Origin: a virus
Virus record (IMG/VR): IMGVR_UViG_3300020171_000046
Location: 1-47,291 of that record
Strand: one strand, 5' to 3'
DNA length: 47,291 bases
Made by a program: the position numbers and the translations under genes. The number at the start of each line of letters is the position of its first letter. Position 1 is the first letter of the stretch. The notes under the pieces are model-generated. The model was given only the letters and a program-made list of their open reading frames with translations. It searched no databases and was not told the origin of the DNA. Of the stretch, positions 2,840-43,612 are shown one piece after another.

Positions 2840-2992
2840 TCATAACCTCCCATCTGTGAACGCCTTGAACGCCTGCTCCCACAAGCGGTATGTGCGCTTG
2901 TATTCCTCGGTGTGCGTCTCGCCCCTCTCGGCCATGAGGTCAAGAAAGCGACTGTACGCTTCCTCAGCCTGCCGTGCGTTCTCTCGCGTCAT
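2840..2992 (-). CDS. Small helical protein, 50 aa
   Basis: The translation is almost all charged helix (ARQAEEAYSRFLDLM, EYKRTYRLWEQAFKAF). The ATG overlaps the stop of the HNH nuclease gene (ATGA), with AAAGGAGC about 10 bases upstream, and the stop is 2 bases from the next start. Tight coupling on both sides and ordinary composition argue that it is real. Function unknown. Confidence 0.55.
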   Translation of the reverse strand: MTRENARQAEEAYSRFLDLMAERGETHTEEYKRTYRLWEQAFKAFTDGRL

Positions 2993-3615
2993 GATCTCGT
3001 AGCTCCTTTCACCCTCTCCGCGCCAGCAGCACGAGCAGCCACAGCCTCTTCTTTAATCCAGGCCCATTCATGCCCGGAGAGAATATTGCTAACAGTTCGC
3101 GCCGCGATGCCAAACCGCTCTCCAACCTCGCGCATTGAGACCAATCCGCGTCGATACGATCTATGGATCGCTCGCACATCATCGGGCGTGAGTTTGGTGT
3201 TTGGATCTTTGTCCCAAGTCTTTTGTCTACCCTTGCGCATCATATCAGCCATGTTCTCGGCATGAGTGCCCAGCCAAAGGTGGGCCGGATTGACGCACAC
3301 CGGGTTATCGCAACTGTGACAAACACACAATCCGCTAGGAATGTCGCCGATAGCCAACTGATAGGCTATTCGGTGAGCCTTGTAGCTGCGGCCTTGAATG
3401 GAAAACGTGCAGTACCTATCTGTGTTCAGGGTCGGTTTCCATTCCCAACACTCATCCGGGCCGCGCTTATCAACCTTGCTCCAGAACCGTTCTGTTAGTC
3501 TCTTGCCGCGCTCCTCTAGCATCGCTGCTCGATAACAAGCACGGCTGCAATAATGGCGGCGGCCTCGGTTCGGCTTGAATGACTCTCCGCATTGTTTGCA
3601 GATCATATCAGCCAT
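2989..3615 (-). CDS. HNH homing-type endonuclease, 208 aa
   Basis: There are three parts. An N-terminal zinc finger uses C6, C9, C23 and C27. A central HNH_3-type nuclease core (about residues 80-125) has AHRIAYQLAIG, CVCHSCDNPVCVNPAHL and GTHAENMADM. A C-terminal helix-turn-helix (about 142-182) has VSMREVGERFGIAARTVSNI, typical of the DNA-recognition ends of free-standing homing nucleases. Such enzymes nick or cut a target site and promote their own spread. Strong ribosome binding site GGGAGGTGAAATAAC. It interrupts a run of small genes, consistent with a mobile insertion. Confidence 0.9.
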   Translation of the reverse strand: MADMICKQCGESFKPNRGRRHYCSRACYRAAMLEERGKRLTERFWSKVDKRGPDECWEWKPTLNTDRYCTFSIQGRSYKAHRIAYQLAIGDIPSGLCVCHSCDNPVCVNPAHLWLGTHAENMADMMRKGRQKTWDKDPNTKLTPDDVRAIHRSYRRGLVSMREVGERFGIAARTVSNILSGHEWAWIKEEAVAARAAGAERVKGATRS

Positions 3616-4208: not shown

Positions 4209-4688
4209 TCAACTCTCAGTAAATCCGGCAGTCAACCATCGTTGCTTTAACCATTCTTGCGCTTCTTCTACAGTCTCGAACATCCTATTTGACTTGAACA
4301 TATTGCAGTATTGGCAGGCAAAGACGGCATTATCTGAGTGGTTATTTTGATTGTAGGAGAAGGGGACGAAGTGATCCCAAGTAGCGTACAGGCGCACAAG
4401 TTCCCCATACCTCAGAAGAAACGTGCCAAACTCTCTCCCGCAATACAGGCATTTGTTGTTCTGCGCTTTGATGGCTTCAGCCTTTTCCCGTGCAGACAAC
4501 GGGCGTCTTTTGTACTCTGGTTGAATGATGAGGCGGTAAATCTCAGGCAACTCTTCTGTCGATATGGGTATCCCGCAACAGGCAGTTTGACCTTCGATTA
4601 CGAGAGATTGGTGCTTACAGTGGGGACATCGCACACGGGGAATTTTCACATTGCCATAGATAGCAATATGTGAGTCAAGGGCGTCCAT
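4209..4688 (-). CDS. HNH endonuclease, 159 aa
   Basis: A zinc knuckle (RCPHC near residue 21, then CC near 38) precedes an HNH core: CLYCG (about 80-84), WDHFVPFS (about 104-111), then FACQYCN and FKSNR (about 123-135). The DHFVPFS and CxxC pairs are the metal-binding and structural zinc sites of this nuclease group. The ATG was chosen for TGAGGAC upstream; an earlier ATG would lie inside the inverted repeats. It has its own promoter (4819-4847) and a repeat-rich leader, as expected of an independently mobile nuclease gene. Confidence 0.85.
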   Translation of the reverse strand: MDALDSHIAIYGNVKIPRVRCPHCKHQSLVIEGQTACCGIPISTEELPEIYRLIIQPEYKRRPLSAREKAEAIKAQNNKCLYCGREFGTFLLRYGELVRLYATWDHFVPFSYNQNNHSDNAVFACQYCNMFKSNRMFETVEEAQEWLKQRWLTAGFTES

Positions 4689-4705
4689 GCTGTCCTCAAT
4701 CCAGA

Positions 4706-4815
4706 CAGTGGATAGCCCCAAGGTCAACCGCGCTCTTGCTAAGGGAGTCGGCCTACCTTGGGGTTATCCACTGACTTGTCAAAAGATTGAGTGCTGTACC
4801 GACTCCCTTAGCAAG
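4706..4815 (-). repeat. Two interlocked inverted repeats in the HNH leader
   Basis: Arm A at 4706-4724 pairs with A' at 4755-4773 (19 bp, one difference that would be a G-U pair in RNA). Arm B at 4735-4751 pairs perfectly with B' at 4799-4815 (17 bp). The order A-B-A'-B' is interlocked, so both stems can form together only as a pseudoknot, or else as alternative structures. The repeats fill the leader between promoter 4819-4847 and the HNH start. Confidence 0.85.
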
Positions 4816-4818
4816 CCA

Positions 4819-4847
4819 ATTATAACAGAATTGGCAAGCGAAGTCCA
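4819..4847 (-). promoter_or_regulatory. Sigma-70-type promoter for the HNH gene
   Basis: On the minus strand a perfect TATAAT (4819-4824) lies 17 bases downstream of TGGACT (4842-4847, 4 of 6 matches). A 7-bp inverted repeat (4815-4821 with 4829-4835) overlaps the -10 box and could be an operator. Transcription would start inside arm B' of the interlocked repeats. Confidence 0.65.
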
Positions 4848-4861
4848 TTTATCTTTTCGTG

Positions 4862-5347
4862 CTACAGACCCGCCTTCTGCCTCATTCTGCGCAGGCTGTA
4901 GGCCAATAGAGCGGTGACTCCGAACCCGAGCGCCAGCATCCCGGACGGCTCTGGTGACATCGGCGCGTTGTCCGGGTAGTAGATCGGCACGGTCGCCGTT
5001 ACACCGTCCGACCACCAGATCGTGCTCTCGGCTATGACATACGGTTCGCTGGAGTTGAGGAAGGCGTTGAACCACGGCCTCGGCAGACTTGGCGACACCG
5101 GCGGGAGCGGGAACGACGCCTCGGGTGTCGTCGTATCCGGCAAGCTCCCGATGTTGTGAGTCGTTCCCACCGTCCAGGCGGTCATCTCGGCGTCCGCGCG
5201 CTCGTTCCGCACGGCCCACCAGTAGACCCCATCCGACAGGTCGCTCCAGTAGGTGTAGGTCGCCGCGTACTCGTAGAGCGGCTCGGGGTCTGCAGCTGCC
5301 GGTAGCAGCAGTGCGCAGAGTAGAATTGCGATCATCCATGATCTCAT
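4862..5347 (-). CDS. Secreted protein with PEP-CTERM sorting signal, 161 aa
   Basis: The N-terminus is a signal peptide (MRSWMIAILLCALLLPAAA). The middle is Trp/Tyr-rich and beta-like with a proline-rich stretch (FPLPPVSPSLPRP). The C-terminus (about 131-161) has MSPEPSG, a hydrophobic helix (MLALGFGVTALLAYSL) and a basic end (RRMRQKAGL), the tripartite PEP-CTERM signal processed by bacterial exosortases. It would therefore be exported and sorted to the envelope. Its ATG overlaps the stop of the ECF sigma gene, with GGAGG 7 bases upstream, so the pair is translationally coupled. Phage genes with this signal are, to my knowledge, unusual. The passenger domain is unrecognised. Confidence 0.8.
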   Translation of the reverse strand: MRSWMIAILLCALLLPAAADPEPLYEYAATYTYWSDLSDGVYWWAVRNERADAEMTAWTVGTTHNIGSLPDTTTPEASFPLPPVSPSLPRPWFNAFLNSSEPYVIAESTIWWSDGVTATVPIYYPDNAPMSPEPSGMLALGFGVTALLAYSLRRMRQKAGL

Positions 5348-5817
5348 GTGTAGTCCTCCTGTAATTCCATCCTCATTTGTTCTTTCGCCCGACGCAGTCG
5401 CCTGACGATTGTGTCAGTGTGCCAATGCTCTGACTCGGCGATCTCCGCAAGCGTCATATCCTGATAGTAGTGAAGCTCAACGACTCGCCGCTCATCTGCG
5501 GGTAGCCGGTCGAGCGCATCTCGAAGGACGATGCGGTCTACCACTTTGCTTGTCTTATCGCTGTAAACTCCGAATGTCCAGTCCTCGTTGGCATAAACCG
5601 TCTCTAACCTAGCCGACGCCTTCGCTCGTGCGCCGCAGAGATGCCGAATCGAGACGGCTAGATAGTTCTCCAGTCGCCCCCTGATCCGCGCCCGATTCTC
5701 CCAGGAATGGAGCATGACCTCTTGCACAACATCTTCCTGATCGTCTCTCGAATCAGTATATCGCCGTGCAACTGTCATCATGTACGCTCGGCAGCCTTCG
5801 AGGTCGGCGGTCAGCAT
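5344..5817 (-). CDS. ECF-type sigma-70 factor, 157 aa
   Basis: A sigma region 2 segment (about residues 8-65: CRAYMMTVARRYT, DQEDVVQEVMLHSWEN, LENYLAVSIRHL) and a region 4 segment (about 100-152: LRDALDRLPADERRVVELHY, MTLAEIAESEHW, TDTIVRRLRRAKEQMR) are joined by a short linker without region 3, the ECF layout. ECF factors redirect RNA polymerase to specific promoters. The start used is the ATG 1 base after the stop of the endolysin-like gene; a longer frame would run into that gene. It could drive late phage promoters or host envelope genes; the sequence does not say which. No anti-sigma factor is adjacent. Confidence 0.85.
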   Translation of the reverse strand: MLTADLEGCRAYMMTVARRYTDSRDDQEDVVQEVMLHSWENRARIRGRLENYLAVSIRHLCGARAKASARLETVYANEDWTFGVYSDKTSKVVDRIVLRDALDRLPADERRVVELHYYQDMTLAEIAESEHWHTDTIVRRLRRAKEQMRMELQEDYT

Positions 5818-5818
5818 C

Positions 5819-6214
5819 TCACACCTTCGGCACGAAAGCGCCCTTGAGTCGCTTCTGCCAGGTCTTCGTGTACTTAAGCGGGATGTCGGCGTAGAGTATC
5901 CCGTCGTGCAGGATAGCGATGTGTCCGGCGATCCTGCCGTCCGCGAGTTTGCCACAACCGCCGAAGAACACGAGACAGTATTCCGGCAACGGGTGACTGA
6001 TGCGTTTCCATCCCCACTTGCCCGGCAAATCCTTCAGTGCGGCGAAGCAGTCGAGCGCCGTGTTGTGCGGCTTCGCCTTCCACGGAAGTGGCAACCCCTG
6101 GGGCAGAAGCGACTGCCGAACGTTCGCCAGGCACATACCCTTGCGCTCCTTCTCAGGAACCTCCTCATAGTGTAGCTTCAGCCACTTGACCGCATGTTCG
6201 AGTTGGCTGCTCAT
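5819..6214 (-). CDS. Putative cysteine-peptidase-type endolysin, 131 aa
   Basis: The layout resembles NlpC/P60 or CHAP-like peptidases: a candidate catalytic Cys in GMCLANVRQ (about residue 28), an Ala/helix segment (NTALDCFAAL), a P-x-x-x-x-LVFF strand, then GHIAILHDGILYADI (about 96-110), where His and a following Asp would complete the site. Such enzymes cleave cell-wall peptides. Position directly after holin-like genes supports an endolysin role. The match is to the motif pattern only, so another cysteine-peptidase use is possible. The start overlaps the upstream stop (ATGA). Confidence 0.5.
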   Translation of the reverse strand: MSSQLEHAVKWLKLHYEEVPEKERKGMCLANVRQSLLPQGLPLPWKAKPHNTALDCFAALKDLPGKWGWKRISHPLPEYCLVFFGGCGKLADGRIAGHIAILHDGILYADIPLKYTKTWQKRLKGAFVPKV

Positions 6215-6450
6215 AACTTCCAGCCCTTCACTTCTTCGAGTACCATGATCTTGACGGCCTCTACGAACTGAGAGGCTGCTTCGACTGGAATCTTGAACTC
6301 GGTCACGAGGCGTTGTTTGATGCGCGCCCAGTCGATCTTCTCAACGATCTGCTCAGGCGTCATTGTCTTGGGATCGACGCCGATTCGGTCTTCCACATGT
6401 TTGCGTAACACCCAGTTGATGAACTCTCCGAGATCAAGTTTCTTTCCCAT
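6211..6450 (-). CDS. Helical hypothetical protein in lysis cluster, 79 aa
   Basis: The protein is all-helical and charged, with no membrane segment or signal peptide: LGEFINWVLRKHVEDRI, PEQIVEKIDWARIKQRL, EAASQFVEAVKIMVLEEV. The ATG at 6450 follows GAGGGGGG; an earlier GTG would add seven poor residues. It lies between the holin-like and endolysin-like genes and overlaps the latter. A lysis-accessory role is suggested only by position. Confidence 0.65.
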   Translation of the reverse strand: MGKKLDLGEFINWVLRKHVEDRIGVDPKTMTPEQIVEKIDWARIKQRLVTEFKIPVEAASQFVEAVKIMVLEEVKGWKL

Positions 6451-6460
6451 ATACCCCCCC

Positions 6461-6724
6461 TCACCTCTCATAATGCGCCAACTGATCCCAACCCATACTC
6501 GCGGCTAGGATAACTAGCGCATTGCAGACCGTCACCACGACCGCGTCGATGTTTAGCGGTTTGAAGATCACGGCGGCCAACACGAGTGACACGAAAGCTG
6601 CACAAAGTTGAGTGCCCCGACCCGAGAGGCCGGGAGAGAACCGCTTAACCATGCCGACGAACAGAGTCACTGCCGCCGACGCGCCTGCAAACGTCTTCAA
6701 GGCATCGAGTGTAATCCAGTCCAT
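6461..6724 (-). CDS. Holin-like membrane protein, 87 aa
   Basis: Three hydrophobic segments are visible: about 8-24 (LKTFAGASAAVTLFVGM), 37-51 (LCAAFVSLVLAAVIF) and 56-75 (AVVVTVCNALVILAASMGW). The last is followed by a charged C-terminus (HYER). Size, number of helices and position before the endolysin-like gene fit a class I-type holin, which permeabilises the inner membrane at lysis. GGAGGGAGGTGAG supports the ATG; upstream codons in frame look noncoding. Confidence 0.65.
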   Translation of the reverse strand: MDWITLDALKTFAGASAAVTLFVGMVKRFSPGLSGRGTQLCAAFVSLVLAAVIFKPLNIDAVVVTVCNALVILAASMGWDQLAHYER

Positions 6725-31196: not shown

Positions 31197-32072
31197 CTAG
31201 TAATACTTGCTCACCCGGTTCTGCTCGATCGCGTATTCGGGTTCGTCACTCACCTTTTCGTCGGTCTGACTGAACGCGAACACACTGCCGAGCCAATACT
31301 CGACTGACTCCATGATGTGACTCCAGGCGTTCTTATCGGGTTGGTCGATGATCCTGTTCTCGTCATCGCCGACCTGTTTCCACTTGTACTGGCCGTCAAG
31401 CGCCTCCACAATCATGGTACACGACGGCGAAACCATGAACTTCGGCTCACCGCCTACCATGCCGGACAATACCTCGCGTGTCGCCTTCTTGCGGGCCTCA
31501 CTGGATACCGGCCCTGGAATGATCGGCACGCCTGGGAATACCTTCGCCAGCGCATCAAAGCACGTTCTCTCGTCCGTCTGACTGCGCGTGTTGCCCGCAG
31601 GATCGGCATAGATGGCCTCGATGACGTACTTGGGATAGTGGCGGTTCTTGTGGAGCTTGACCACCTCTGCCAACTGCTCGATGCCTTGAGTCTGGATCGT
31701 GTTCCGACCGTTCCACGTAACCTGCTCGTGAAACACCATTGCGCGGCCTGTAGGAGTCACGAATCCCCATGCACACGCGGGAGTCAGGCCGAAGTCAAAC
31801 ATCAGGTGCAGTGGAACGGTTTCCACTGGGTAGAACGGCTTCTTGGAAACGTGAACCTCGCGGCGGAACTCGGTCGAATATATCCCGACGCCACTTGCTA
31901 CCGTCCAGTCGATCTCCATCTCTCTGCGCCACGAGCGGCCAGTCCTGCCGCCAACCATGCCGATAGCGAGTCTGTCTAAGACCTCTTCCTCACGCTTCAT
32001 GGCGTCGGCAGTGTAGTGGACGCGGAAGACGTGAATTCCACTCTTGGTTGTGCGCTCTTCAACGCCGGTCAT
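31197..32072 (-). CDS. terL: Terminase large subunit, nuclease half, 291 aa
   Basis: It begins with the region that normally follows the ATPase domain (TTKSGIHVFRVHYTADAMKR) and contains the RNase H-fold nuclease. Candidate metal ligands are D93 (HLMFDFGLTPACAWG), D157 (YADPAGNTRSQTDE) and D246 with H252 (IIDQPDKNAWSHIMES). It has no Walker motifs; those are in the ORF at 32534-33349. Its ATG overlaps the stop of the 73-aa small gene. It would cut concatemeric DNA during packaging, either as a separate polypeptide associating with the ATPase half or after RNA splicing. No residues seem to be missing between halves. Confidence 0.8.
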   Translation of the reverse strand: MTGVEERTTKSGIHVFRVHYTADAMKREEEVLDRLAIGMVGGRTGRSWRREMEIDWTVASGVGIYSTEFRREVHVSKKPFYPVETVPLHLMFDFGLTPACAWGFVTPTGRAMVFHEQVTWNGRNTIQTQGIEQLAEVVKLHKNRHYPKYVIEAIYADPAGNTRSQTDERTCFDALAKVFPGVPIIPGPVSSEARKKATREVLSGMVGGEPKFMVSPSCTMIVEALDGQYKWKQVGDDENRIIDQPDKNAWSHIMESVEYWLGSVFAFSQTDEKVSDEPEYAIEQNRVSKYY

Positions 32073-32330: not shown

Positions 32331-32537
32331 TCAACGAACCTCCTCCATGATGTCGGCGTATAGTGACAATTCCTCCGCCAAGTGTTTGAGGGAAGACTTG
32401 CTTAGTCCGATACTCTTGCCCCCAACGCCACAGGTAAGAATTATCGACTGTCCCCCTGGGGGAATTGCTAGATAAAGAATATCTGCATCTTCCAGTAATT
32501 GAACCACTTTGCCGGAATACCTTATCAACTCGGTCAT
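32331..32537 (-). CDS. Small protein inserted within terL, 68 aa
   Basis: The sequence alternates beta-like and helical parts: KVVQLLEDADILYLAIPPGG, QSIILTCGVGGKSIGLSKSS, LKHLAEELSLYADIMEEV. Unrelated by eye to the 71/73-aa pair. Its ATG overlaps the TGA that ends the terminase ATPase half, and the last codons of that half (GCGGAGGGAAAGAC) act as its ribosome binding site. Function unknown. Confidence 0.65.
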   Translation of the reverse strand: MTELIRYSGKVVQLLEDADILYLAIPPGGQSIILTCGVGGKSIGLSKSSLKHLAEELSLYADIMEEVR

Positions 32538-33349
32538 GTCTTTCCCTCCGCATCATACAGCAGATCATGCGCAAACGCCCCTAGTTCAGCTGTACAGATA
32601 ATGTCCACGTGTCCGCCGCCCTGGATTGTCGGCTGAATGTTGCGCCAACTCTCTTCTTGCCACTGCCAGCGCGGGAACTCGTCCATCAGGACGTTCGAGA
32701 ACGTGAACTCCTGCATCTGCGCCTCGCCGGATGCTACCGCCATGATATTACTACCCGTCTCCTCGCAGCGAACCGTCTTCCAGCCCAACCCCTGTTTAGC
32801 CTCGAAGATCACGGGTGTCTTGTTCGGCCATATCGGTTCTTTGAACTGTTCTAACCACTTCTGATTCGGCGCTGAGTATCGCAGACTGTTGTAAACGGCA
32901 TCGGACACAGGCGGGATATGGTCATAGATGAACTGCATCCTGTGACCACCAAGTAGATAGGCCGACTTCTCCAGTTTGTCGGATGCCACAGCGTTCGTAT
33001 GCGTCGGGTTGCGCATAATATCATCCAGGTAGACCGCCACTGCCCACCAGGTTATGAGCATCCTGCGGCTTTTCTCGATGGCGTTGACGATGTTGTCGAG
33101 CCGATGGTCGGTCAAGTGCTTCAGGTAAGCGAATCGCGGCTCGCCATTGTGCAGCACGTCCAAACCGGGGAACTTGCGGATTCGACCACCAGCTTCGTCA
33201 CGAGTCCATACGGCACGACTGAGGAAATCCCAAGTGTCAGCAAATGGCGACTTCCCAGAACGCGCCATCCCCTTCGCCAGCGTCGCCTCCACCAACCGCC
33301 AGCCCGCCTGCTCGACCTGCGCTTCGACTGTGCCGGGTGTGGGCGTCAT
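32534..33349 (-). CDS. terL: Terminase large subunit, ATPase half, 271 aa
   Basis: Packaging ATPase domain. A Walker-A-like segment is AIEKSRRMLITWW (about residues 91-102), Walker B is SNVLMDEFPRW (about 218-228, D and E adjacent), and the coupling motif is ICTAELG (about 252-258). It then stops at AHDLLYDAEGKT, exactly where the domain linker of terminases lies; the nuclease domain is encoded separately at 31197-32072. The ATG overlaps the stop of the 62-aa zinc gene. It should bind the portal and translocate DNA. The split is unusual and precise. Confidence 0.85.
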   Translation of the reverse strand: MTPTPGTVEAQVEQAGWRLVEATLAKGMARSGKSPFADTWDFLSRAVWTRDEAGGRIRKFPGLDVLHNGEPRFAYLKHLTDHRLDNIVNAIEKSRRMLITWWAVAVYLDDIMRNPTHTNAVASDKLEKSAYLLGGHRMQFIYDHIPPVSDAVYNSLRYSAPNQKWLEQFKEPIWPNKTPVIFEAKQGLGWKTVRCEETGSNIMAVASGEAQMQEFTFSNVLMDEFPRWQWQEESWRNIQPTIQGGGHVDIICTAELGAFAHDLLYDAEGKT

Positions 33350-33534
33350 GGGTGTGCGTTCTCTTTCCGTATCCACTCTTCGACACATGAGGTTGAACAG
33401 AACCAGTATTCCTCAACAGGTCGAACTCTGACTAGCACCCAGCTGAGAGGATGGTAAGTGGCAGCCGTTTCCCTGCTCGGCATGTTACCTTCTTCGTCAT
33501 GCTGGCAATTCTGACACGTCCAGCGAACGTACAT
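33346..33534 (-). CDS. Stand-alone zinc domain protein, 62 aa
   Basis: WTCQNCQHDE provides one CxxC and WFCSTSCVEEW the second pair, around a core ATYHPLSWVLVRVRPVEEY. The C-terminal about 60 residues of the 335-aa protein at 33991-34998 have the same order (WTCPCG, YHPLPWVSFRI, WFCSVKCLVKW), so the two are paralogous zinc domains. The gene overlaps terL by 4 bases. Likely nucleic-acid or protein binding. Confidence 0.65.
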   Translation of the reverse strand: MYVRWTCQNCQHDEEGNMPSRETAATYHPLSWVLVRVRPVEEYWFCSTSCVEEWIRKENAHP

Positions 33535-42572: not shown

Positions 42573-43052
42573 TTACCAACCGTCCCCTTCCTCTCGTTTC
42601 ACCGCCCGGTAGTGCAACTCGGGATGCGCCGCCGGCTTGTCGTGGCAGGTCTGGCATAACGTGACGAGGTTATCGTCGTCGTCCGTACCGCCCTTGCTGC
42701 GAGGCTTGATATGGTGGACTTCCAGGGATATTCCGCCATTCGCCCGGTAGCCTGTACCTTCACGGTAGACACGCGCAGGTCGGTCTGGGCAGATACCGCA
42801 CTCTTGGCAGGTGATGTTGTCTCTCCAGATAACGCGCTGCCGAGTTCTGATCCATCTCGTTCCGTGCCCCGCGCCTCTGTTCATAAACCAACCCCAATAA
42901 CCTCCGATCTTGCCGCACTCCTTATCGCACCAACACTGTGCATGACCGGTAAGCGGCTCTCCACACCAGAAGCACGTTCGCTTCGGAGCGCCTTCACCGA
43001 ATGGGTACATCGGCGTCGTTCGGCCTTTGTGCGATGGTCGATGATCGCTCAT
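42573..43052 (-). CDS. HNH endonuclease, 159 aa
   Basis: N-terminal zinc knuckle (CFWCGEPLTGHAQCWC) and a classical HNH core: CQECG (about 83-87), LEVHHIKPRSKGGTDDDDNL (about 112-131), LCQTCHDK (about 133-140). This is the general McrA-like HNH type used in phage nucleases for DNA processing or homing. ATG chosen for GGAGGG upstream; the longer frame is an Arg-rich shadow of the neighbouring nuclease gene. Overlaps that gene by 4 bases. Confidence 0.9.
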   Translation of the reverse strand: MSDHRPSHKGRTTPMYPFGEGAPKRTCFWCGEPLTGHAQCWCDKECGKIGGYWGWFMNRGAGHGTRWIRTRQRVIWRDNITCQECGICPDRPARVYREGTGYRANGGISLEVHHIKPRSKGGTDDDDNLVTLCQTCHDKPAAHPELHYRAVKREEGDGW

Positions 43053-43612
43053 CCCTCCACGCCCTCCACCGGCCACGCCTCGCGCCAGCACTCGCGGCAC
43101 TTGATCTGTTCGACAGCGCAAGGTTCTCGCTGTTCGTAGACGGGCAAGTTCTGCGGTATACCCGGCAAGCCCGATAGTTGCGGATGCCCGCATTTGCGGC
43201 CCTTCCGATGAGGGCAGTTCATGCAGTAGCAGACACCGGGCCAGCATTCGCAACCCTTCCGCGTTCCCTTCTTGACTCGCCCGCCCATGATCTCAATGCG
43301 CGTGAACCGTAGTACCGTCCAGCCGAGCCGGGCAGCCTCGTTCAGCTTGTCGTTGTCGTTCACTACACCCATTGGCCGTTGATGCCTGCCCTGCGCGAAC
43401 ACCCCGCCGTCAACCTCGACGGCCAAGTTGCGGTCGGGCCAGGCATAGTCGAAGGCCCATTTGCGCGTCGGGTGAAAGTGATACTCCTTCACTGGTGTAG
43501 GTATCCCGGCGGCCTCCATATCTCGCTCAAGTCGGCGGGCAAGCTCTGTGCGCTTCGTCTTCCCCTCGTGCGCCCTGACCTCCTCGGGCGTCATCGTGCG
43601 CTGGCGCGTCAT
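43049..43612 (-). CDS. PD-(D/E)XK-like endonuclease with zinc tail, 187 aa
   Basis: About residues 40-105 match the Vsr/DUF559-type fold: FHPTRKWAFDYAWPDRNLAV, EVDGGVF, NDKLNEAARLGWTVLRFT. D55 (FDYAW) and the E and D of VEVDGG are candidate catalytic residues. The C-terminal 70 residues hold many cysteines (CECWPGVCYCMNCPH, CRECW). Such enzymes nick or resolve DNA; here a fusion to a Cys-rich domain may give target binding. Confidence 0.7.
   Translation of the reverse strand: MTRQRTMTPEEVRAHEGKTKRTELARRLERDMEAAGIPTPVKEYHFHPTRKWAFDYAWPDRNLAVEVDGGVFAQGRHQRPMGVVNDNDKLNEAARLGWTVLRFTRIEIMGGRVKKGTRKGCECWPGVCYCMNCPHRKGRKCGHPQLSGLPGIPQNLPVYEQREPCAVEQIKCRECWREAWPVEGVEG

Follow-up and report, generated by a model that had tools for sequence, protein, structure and literature searches.

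A lysis-like chain of genes was found to end in a sigma factor gene of the ECF type that is coupled to a gene encoding an exported protein, which probably carries a PEP-CTERM sorting signal. Both genes reside in a single IMG/VR virus record of 47,291 bases, the whole of which is denoted here as the window. The pair is real and unusual, and not an artefact. The sigma factor adds a member to an established family, the exported protein probably adds one to the PEP-CTERM proteins, and the coupling of the two at this position is a new arrangement. The features that make up the pair and its surroundings are listed below; all of them lie on the minus strand, which carries almost all genes of the contig.

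4862..5347, minus strand: gene for the exported 161-aa protein (P0002), with a probable PEP-CTERM sorting signal (TIGR02595, grammar test, codon score).
5291..5347, minus strand: predicted signal peptide, residues 1-19, with an AAA↓D cleavage-like site (sequence reading, hydropathy).
4865..4957, minus strand: probable C-terminal tripartite signal in the last 31 residues, consisting of SPEP, a hydrophobic helix and RRMRQKAGL (TIGR02595 match at 4883-4954, grammar test).
5344..5347, minus strand: ATGA stop/start overlap of the sigma and exported-protein genes, exactly 4 bases.
5355..5360, minus strand: Shine-Dalgarno sequence AGGAGG of the exported-protein gene, within the sigma gene (duplex -10.3 kcal/mol).
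5344..5817, minus strand: gene for the ECF sigma factor (P0001), 157 aa, ATG start, regions 2 and 4.
5819..6214, minus strand: lysin-like gene, 131 aa, one base before the sigma gene (by motif only).
6211..6471, minus strand: gene of 86 aa with no function assigned, overlapping the lysin-like gene by 4 bases.
6461..6724, minus strand: gene for a holin-like membrane protein, ATG start (the listed ORF starts at TTG, 6829).
4819..4847, minus strand: promoter-like site after the pair, reading away towards an HNH gene (TGGACT-17-TATAAT with TG, 10/12).

The first-pass annotation of this DNA had proposed an ECF sigma factor, and this was borne out by the match to TIGR02937 (70.3 bits, E=1.4e-19; cut-off 42.9), by both Pfam sigma regions (PF04542, 33.5 bits, and PF08281, 47.5 bits, each exceeding its cut-off) and by the best PDB chain, which was that of the ECF factor SigL (6dv9_F; residues 11-154, E=8.8e-10). 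The protein is complete and made of two domains, corresponding to regions 2 and 4 only, and its ATG is preceded by AAGGTG. When compared with 200 planctomycete and 200 proteobacterial genomes, it was about 30% identical to the best proteins, the nearest bacterial sigma factors being spread over mixed phyla, and two phage records matched it at 25-28% identity and a single IMG/VR record at 25%; no plasmid match was obtained. Since the sigma factor is distant from everything sampled, matches proteins in mixed phyla and has no plasmid match, it provides no host signal. A scan by sigma alignment recovered one distant viral sigma-like gene, which has no PEP-CTERM neighbor. Two planctomycete genomes had their best sigma-like matches in very long frames (1,427 and 1,210 residues), where these are apparently fused to large proteins.

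The 4-base overlap described in the first-pass annotation was found at 5344-5347, and a perfect AGGAGG lies 7 nt upstream of the ATG of the exported-protein gene. Upstream of the pair, the chain continues with the lysin-like gene, which is 1 nt away, the 86-aa gene, which overlaps the lysin-like gene by 4 nt, and the holin-like gene, which overlaps the 86-aa gene by 11 nt. In a gap-free gene chain such as this, transcription as a single message is likelier and control of the exported-protein gene by the sigma factor is not required, so that the earlier reading of such a regulation is unsupported. A scan that would miss a sigma-specific promoter detected neither a sigma-70-like promoter ahead of the pair or inside the chain nor a terminator-like site in or around it. 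The pair looks like part of a late operon and not like a separate cargo unit; the idea of a cargo for lysogenic conversion thus found no support, as the pair lies inside a late/lysis chain and appears to have no promoter and terminator of its own, and no integrase was present among the ORFs scanned (a subset of those of a possibly incomplete contig). The ATGA coupling, the perfect Shine-Dalgarno sequence and the intact frames suggest that the arrangement is maintained.

The pair had also been placed next to lysis genes. It does adjoin holin-like and lysin-like genes, but the identities of these are weak. The holin-like gene matches the holin family PHROG 9752 (E=0.0078) and its product contains multiple hydrophobic stretches by reading, whereas the label of the lysin-like gene rests only on the motifs CxxxVR and GHIAIL, recognized by eye. 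For the latter, there was no family match in Pfam, PHROG or NCBIfam and nothing meaningful in the PDB, and its AF2 model was of low confidence (pLDDT 43) and uninformative. The promoter-like site at 4819..4847 probably marks the operon end, a weak indication given that one such site was found and 1.3 were expected in shuffles. Just after the pair, at 4703-4815, there are two interleaved inverted repeats of 22 nt (91%) and 17 nt (100%), ordered A B A' B', so that the hairpins would be mutually exclusive or form a pseudoknot. The predicted folding of this stretch is much stronger than that of its shuffles (z -6.0), and TTATCCACT, near a DnaA box in sequence, occurs in one of the arms; exact-arm matches in three other viral contigs were judged to be unrelated.

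In the exported protein, the signal peptide claimed earlier was supported by hydropathy and by the putative cleavage site: the N-terminal hydrophobic stretch (KD19 up to 1.87) ends at AAA↓DPEP. Residues 2-18 are modelled as helical, with low confidence, and strands are predicted, also with low confidence, for the Trp/Tyr/Pro-rich ectodomain of about 110 residues; the AF2 model as a whole reached a pLDDT of 46, which is low. According to hydropathy and sequence, no further helix exists between the predicted signal peptide and the C-terminal helix, and the C-terminus of the protein is SPEPSGMLALGFGVTALLAYSLRRMRQKAGL. A Foldseek search with the AF2 models of the exported and lysin-like proteins returned nothing. 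The frame is the coding one, as it scored +0.165 bits/codon versus -0.49 and -0.15 for the other two frames of the same strand.

The exosortase sorting signal that had also been proposed stood as regards its tripartite layout and was borderline with the PEP-CTERM model TIGR02595, which in a six-frame search of the contig reached 16.8 bits (E=9.7e-4), just above the cut-off of 16. It was less convincing by hmmscan of the exported protein, where the same model gave 13.4 bits, below the cut-off, and with Pfam PF07589, which gave 15.1 bits against a cut-off of 20.7. With our own HMM, built from 24 canonical tails and yielding 17-55 bits for true tails in a leave-one-out procedure, the tail of the exported protein scored 6.6 bits, and some shuffles scored higher. 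The layout itself was evaluated by a grammar test, devised after the exported protein had been seen, that demands PEP, then 12-20 uncharged and mainly hydrophobic residues, and then a basic pair near the C-terminus. In the exported protein, the PEP, the hydrophobic helix and the basic cluster all fall within about 30 residues of the C-terminus, and the protein passed, as did 18/18 true tails and 48 of the 1,243 ORFs in PEP-CTERM loci; passes numbered 0/5,381 among viral ORFs, 0/1,529 among ORFs of other loci, and 24 in 500,000 shuffles of the protein's own tail. The PEP-CTERM call can be considered good, if not clean, with an atypical tail and HMM scores at the edge; judged from its sequence it is probable, and the protein is likely to be a true exosortase substrate.

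The likeness to the PEP-CTERM/exosortase (EpsH) sorting system described by Haft et al. 2006 (PMC1569441) includes the N-terminal signal peptide, the lack of a middle helix, the C-terminal succession of PEP, helix and basic cluster, and the absence of homology outside the tail. A tblastn search of phages with the exported protein produced one chance match only (E=3), and about 790 planctomycete and proteobacterial genomes provided repeat-domain and chance matches only; a protein of the PEP-CTERM class normally has no homologues beyond its tail (PMC1569441). In contrast, bacterial PEP-CTERM genes form mostly single-gene operons, which are controlled by sigma-54 in Proteobacteria (PMC1569441), whereas the gene described here belongs to a phage, is coupled to an ECF sigma gene and encodes a protein whose tail scores close to the model cut-offs.

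That PEP-CTERM proteins occur on virus contigs was observed when IMG/VR was scanned with canonical tails of this class, which yielded 35 contigs whose complete proteins have signal-peptide-like starts and PEP-CTERM tails. Some of these contigs are clearly phage, while not all 35 need be phage genes, as IMG/VR may hold host stretches. In one of them, L205, the PEP-CTERM gene lies between the major head gene and that of a lysis-family amidase, with a virion structural protein nearby, and another, L223, carries a small terminase. The L205 capsid protein shares 71% identity with its counterpart in a GenBank phage and about 40% with that of Myxococcus phage Mx8, and a comparison of the L205 PEP-CTERM protein with that of L218 gave a dN of 0.046 and a dS of 0.298 (dN/dS about 0.15), indicating that the protein is kept under purifying selection. 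The PEP-CTERM proteins of L205 and L223 had no match in GenBank phages. In five contigs (L205, L207, L208, L209 and L218), which represent phages with an Mx8-like capsid, the gene for a canonical PEP-CTERM protein is close to those for the major head protein and an amidase; further PEP-CTERM contigs (L200, L202, L204, L210, L212, L214, L219, L223, L226, L228 and L230) belong at least partly to one BLAST cluster. Among the papers searched, none was found by title or abstract to be a study of phage-coded PEP-CTERM proteins. Exosortase-signal proteins of the TIGR03118 type are mentioned among the transferred genes of Yellowstone hot-spring viruses (PMC11003980). These and the proteins of the 35 contigs share with the exported protein an exosortase-type C-terminal signal on virus contigs, but they are not homologous to it.

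None of the 35 PEP-CTERM-bearing records contains a sigma factor over cut-off. Among 43 capsid-related records, many of which are fragments, a sigma factor was present in one and a PEP-CTERM match in none. The pairing of a sigma factor with a PEP-CTERM-like protein is therefore unique in the sample, and a joint role of the two has no support from conservation. PEP-CTERM matches were found in 87/199 planctomycete and 25/200 proteobacterial genomes; a sigma gene near a PEP-CTERM gene was seen in 1 of about 59 bacterial loci, where the two are divergent and about 360 bp apart, and this co-location was taken as chance.

As to the phage itself, PHROG matches to head maturation protease and major head families were found for its head genes, together with matches to a portal/head-tail adaptor, a small terminase and a large terminase, the C-terminal half of which matches TerL of several phages. 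Capsid matches, at 22-30% identity, were to phages such as Synechococcus phage MinM2 and phage DSL-LC04, as well as to uncultivated ones, and scans of IMG/VR with the sigma factor, exported protein, portal or terminase as single proteins found no relatives. The large terminase is apparently split in two ORFs (window 31197-32072 and 32534-33388) about 460 bp apart, a region in which Rfam gave no match, and in a related phage (MW202785) it is likewise annotated as two pieces; the division may reflect an intron, an insertion or a true split. The contig also contains three HNH endonuclease genes (window 2989-3615, 4209-4727 and 42573-43253). No exosortase is encoded in the contig. Strong Shine-Dalgarno sequences precede many of its genes, which argues against a Bacteroidota host.

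The reading that we tentatively prefer, as a possibility, is that of a late, lysis-linked envelope module that would borrow host RNA polymerase and host exosortase. The two proteins were observed, as were their anatomy and the way they are coupled, and from these we infer the following course of action. The host would be an exosortase-bearing, Shine-Dalgarno-using bacterium, in which the holin-like, lysin-like, sigma and PEP-CTERM-like genes would be expressed on one late message, as their gap-free order suggests. Translation of the 161-aa protein would be coupled to that of the sigma factor, and the product would be exported through Sec and trimmed by signal peptidase I. Its C-terminal helix would hold it in the inner membrane with the PEP motif at the periplasmic face, where, following the known PEP-CTERM pathway, the host exosortase would cut at PEP and the ectodomain would move towards the cell surface. 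The sigma factor, in keeping with its ECF family, would act on the host core RNA polymerase and turn on host envelope-type promoters late in infection. The benefit might lie in an altered surface of the dying cell or its debris, which could, for instance, lower re-adsorption or superinfection or make release from a polysaccharide matrix easier.

This proposal of an envelope module is based on the complete sigma factor, the predicted export and tripartite signal, and the ATGA, AGGAGG and gap-free chain, as well as on the existence of canonical PEP-CTERM proteins, under purifying selection, in the late regions of true phage genomes (such as L205). By analogy, it also draws on the sigma factors of Bacillus anthracis phages (Wip4 and Bcp1), which raise host exopolysaccharide and biofilm (PMC2716549). 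With these and with spore-phage sigma factors (PMC9429907), the protein described here shares that it is a phage-coded member of the sigma-70 family, which could act on envelope or exopolysaccharide genes. However, the B. anthracis phage factors tested were likened to the sporulation factor SigF and act in lysogens of Gram-positive hosts, whereas that of our contig is of the ECF type, belongs to a late/lysis gene chain and adjoins an exported protein. Counting against the envelope module are the HMM scores at the edge, the atypical tail, the lack of an exosortase in the contig, the unconserved pair and the weak lysis identities. A more complete version, a lysis operon ending in a two-gene envelope programme in which the sigma factor would switch host surface genes, the exosortase-sorted protein would be displayed on the dying cell or debris, and one message would time all of this, is doubtful at best.

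Most described phage sigma factors, such as those of SPO1 and T4, serve phage transcription, and the sigma factor could be an ordinary transcription factor for phage genes, the exported protein being an unrelated operon neighbor. The lack of conservation of the pairing in the records sampled speaks for this possibility, as does the fact that, before 2009, roles of phage sigma factors had been described only in phage gene transcription (PMC2716549). Yet the sigma gene lies distally in the late chain, behind the genes expected as its targets, and the best spaced two-box motif was shared by 3/20 upstream regions, the same as in shuffles (a comparison of low power), so that we find this explanation somewhat doubtful, if by no means negligible.

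The position of the exported-protein gene beside holin-like and lysin-like genes, together with the borderline PEP-CTERM scores, would also fit a lysis accessory (spanin-like or a holin regulator) that merely resembles a PEP-CTERM protein. An N-terminal export signal combined with a C-terminal membrane helix and a short basic tail is, in addition, the layout of a unimolecular spanin. This is nonetheless unlikely. The protein has no lipobox, as the sole Cys near its start (C11) comes after LL in the hydrophobic core (ILLC, with no small residue of a lipobox before it); the site reads as one for signal peptidase I (AAA↓D), so that the outer-membrane end of a u-spanin is missing; and the exact PEP-helix-basic layout is rare.

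Base composition raised the alternative of two unlinked acquisitions that became neighbors by chance and have no joint function. The GC3 of the exported-protein gene (0.82) is the highest of 41 genes (z 2.6), which hints that it came from a GC-richer genome, perhaps by recent capture, whereas that of the sigma gene is 0.62 and its codon score is low (0.033 bits/codon); besides, the pair was seen in no relative. On the other hand, the adjoining lysin-like gene has a similarly high GC3 (0.78), and the upkeep suggested by the exact coupling, perfect Shine-Dalgarno sequence and intact frames makes unlinked acquisition distinctly unlikely. Finally, although an ECF sigma gene typically overlaps with a downstream gene that encodes a membrane anti-sigma factor, a pattern that the ATGA coupling fits, it is improbable that the exported protein partners the sigma factor at the membrane, whether as anti-sigma factor or as sensor, because its ectodomain is N-terminal, its roughly 9-10 cytoplasmic residues (RRMRQKAGL) are too few for an anti-sigma domain, and no anti-sigma family match appeared in Pfam, NCBIfam or PHROGs.

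If the proposed envelope module is true, it would mean that a phage uses the bacterial exosortase pathway in infection, and that it does so in a pairing with a sigma factor. The substrates and purpose of this pathway are poorly understood. Our survey of IMG/VR points to a wider spread of virus-borne PEP-CTERM proteins than was found described in the papers searched, and the L205 family, made of phages related to Mx8, offers test cases for the effect of exosortase substrates on phage adsorption, lysis and biofilm.
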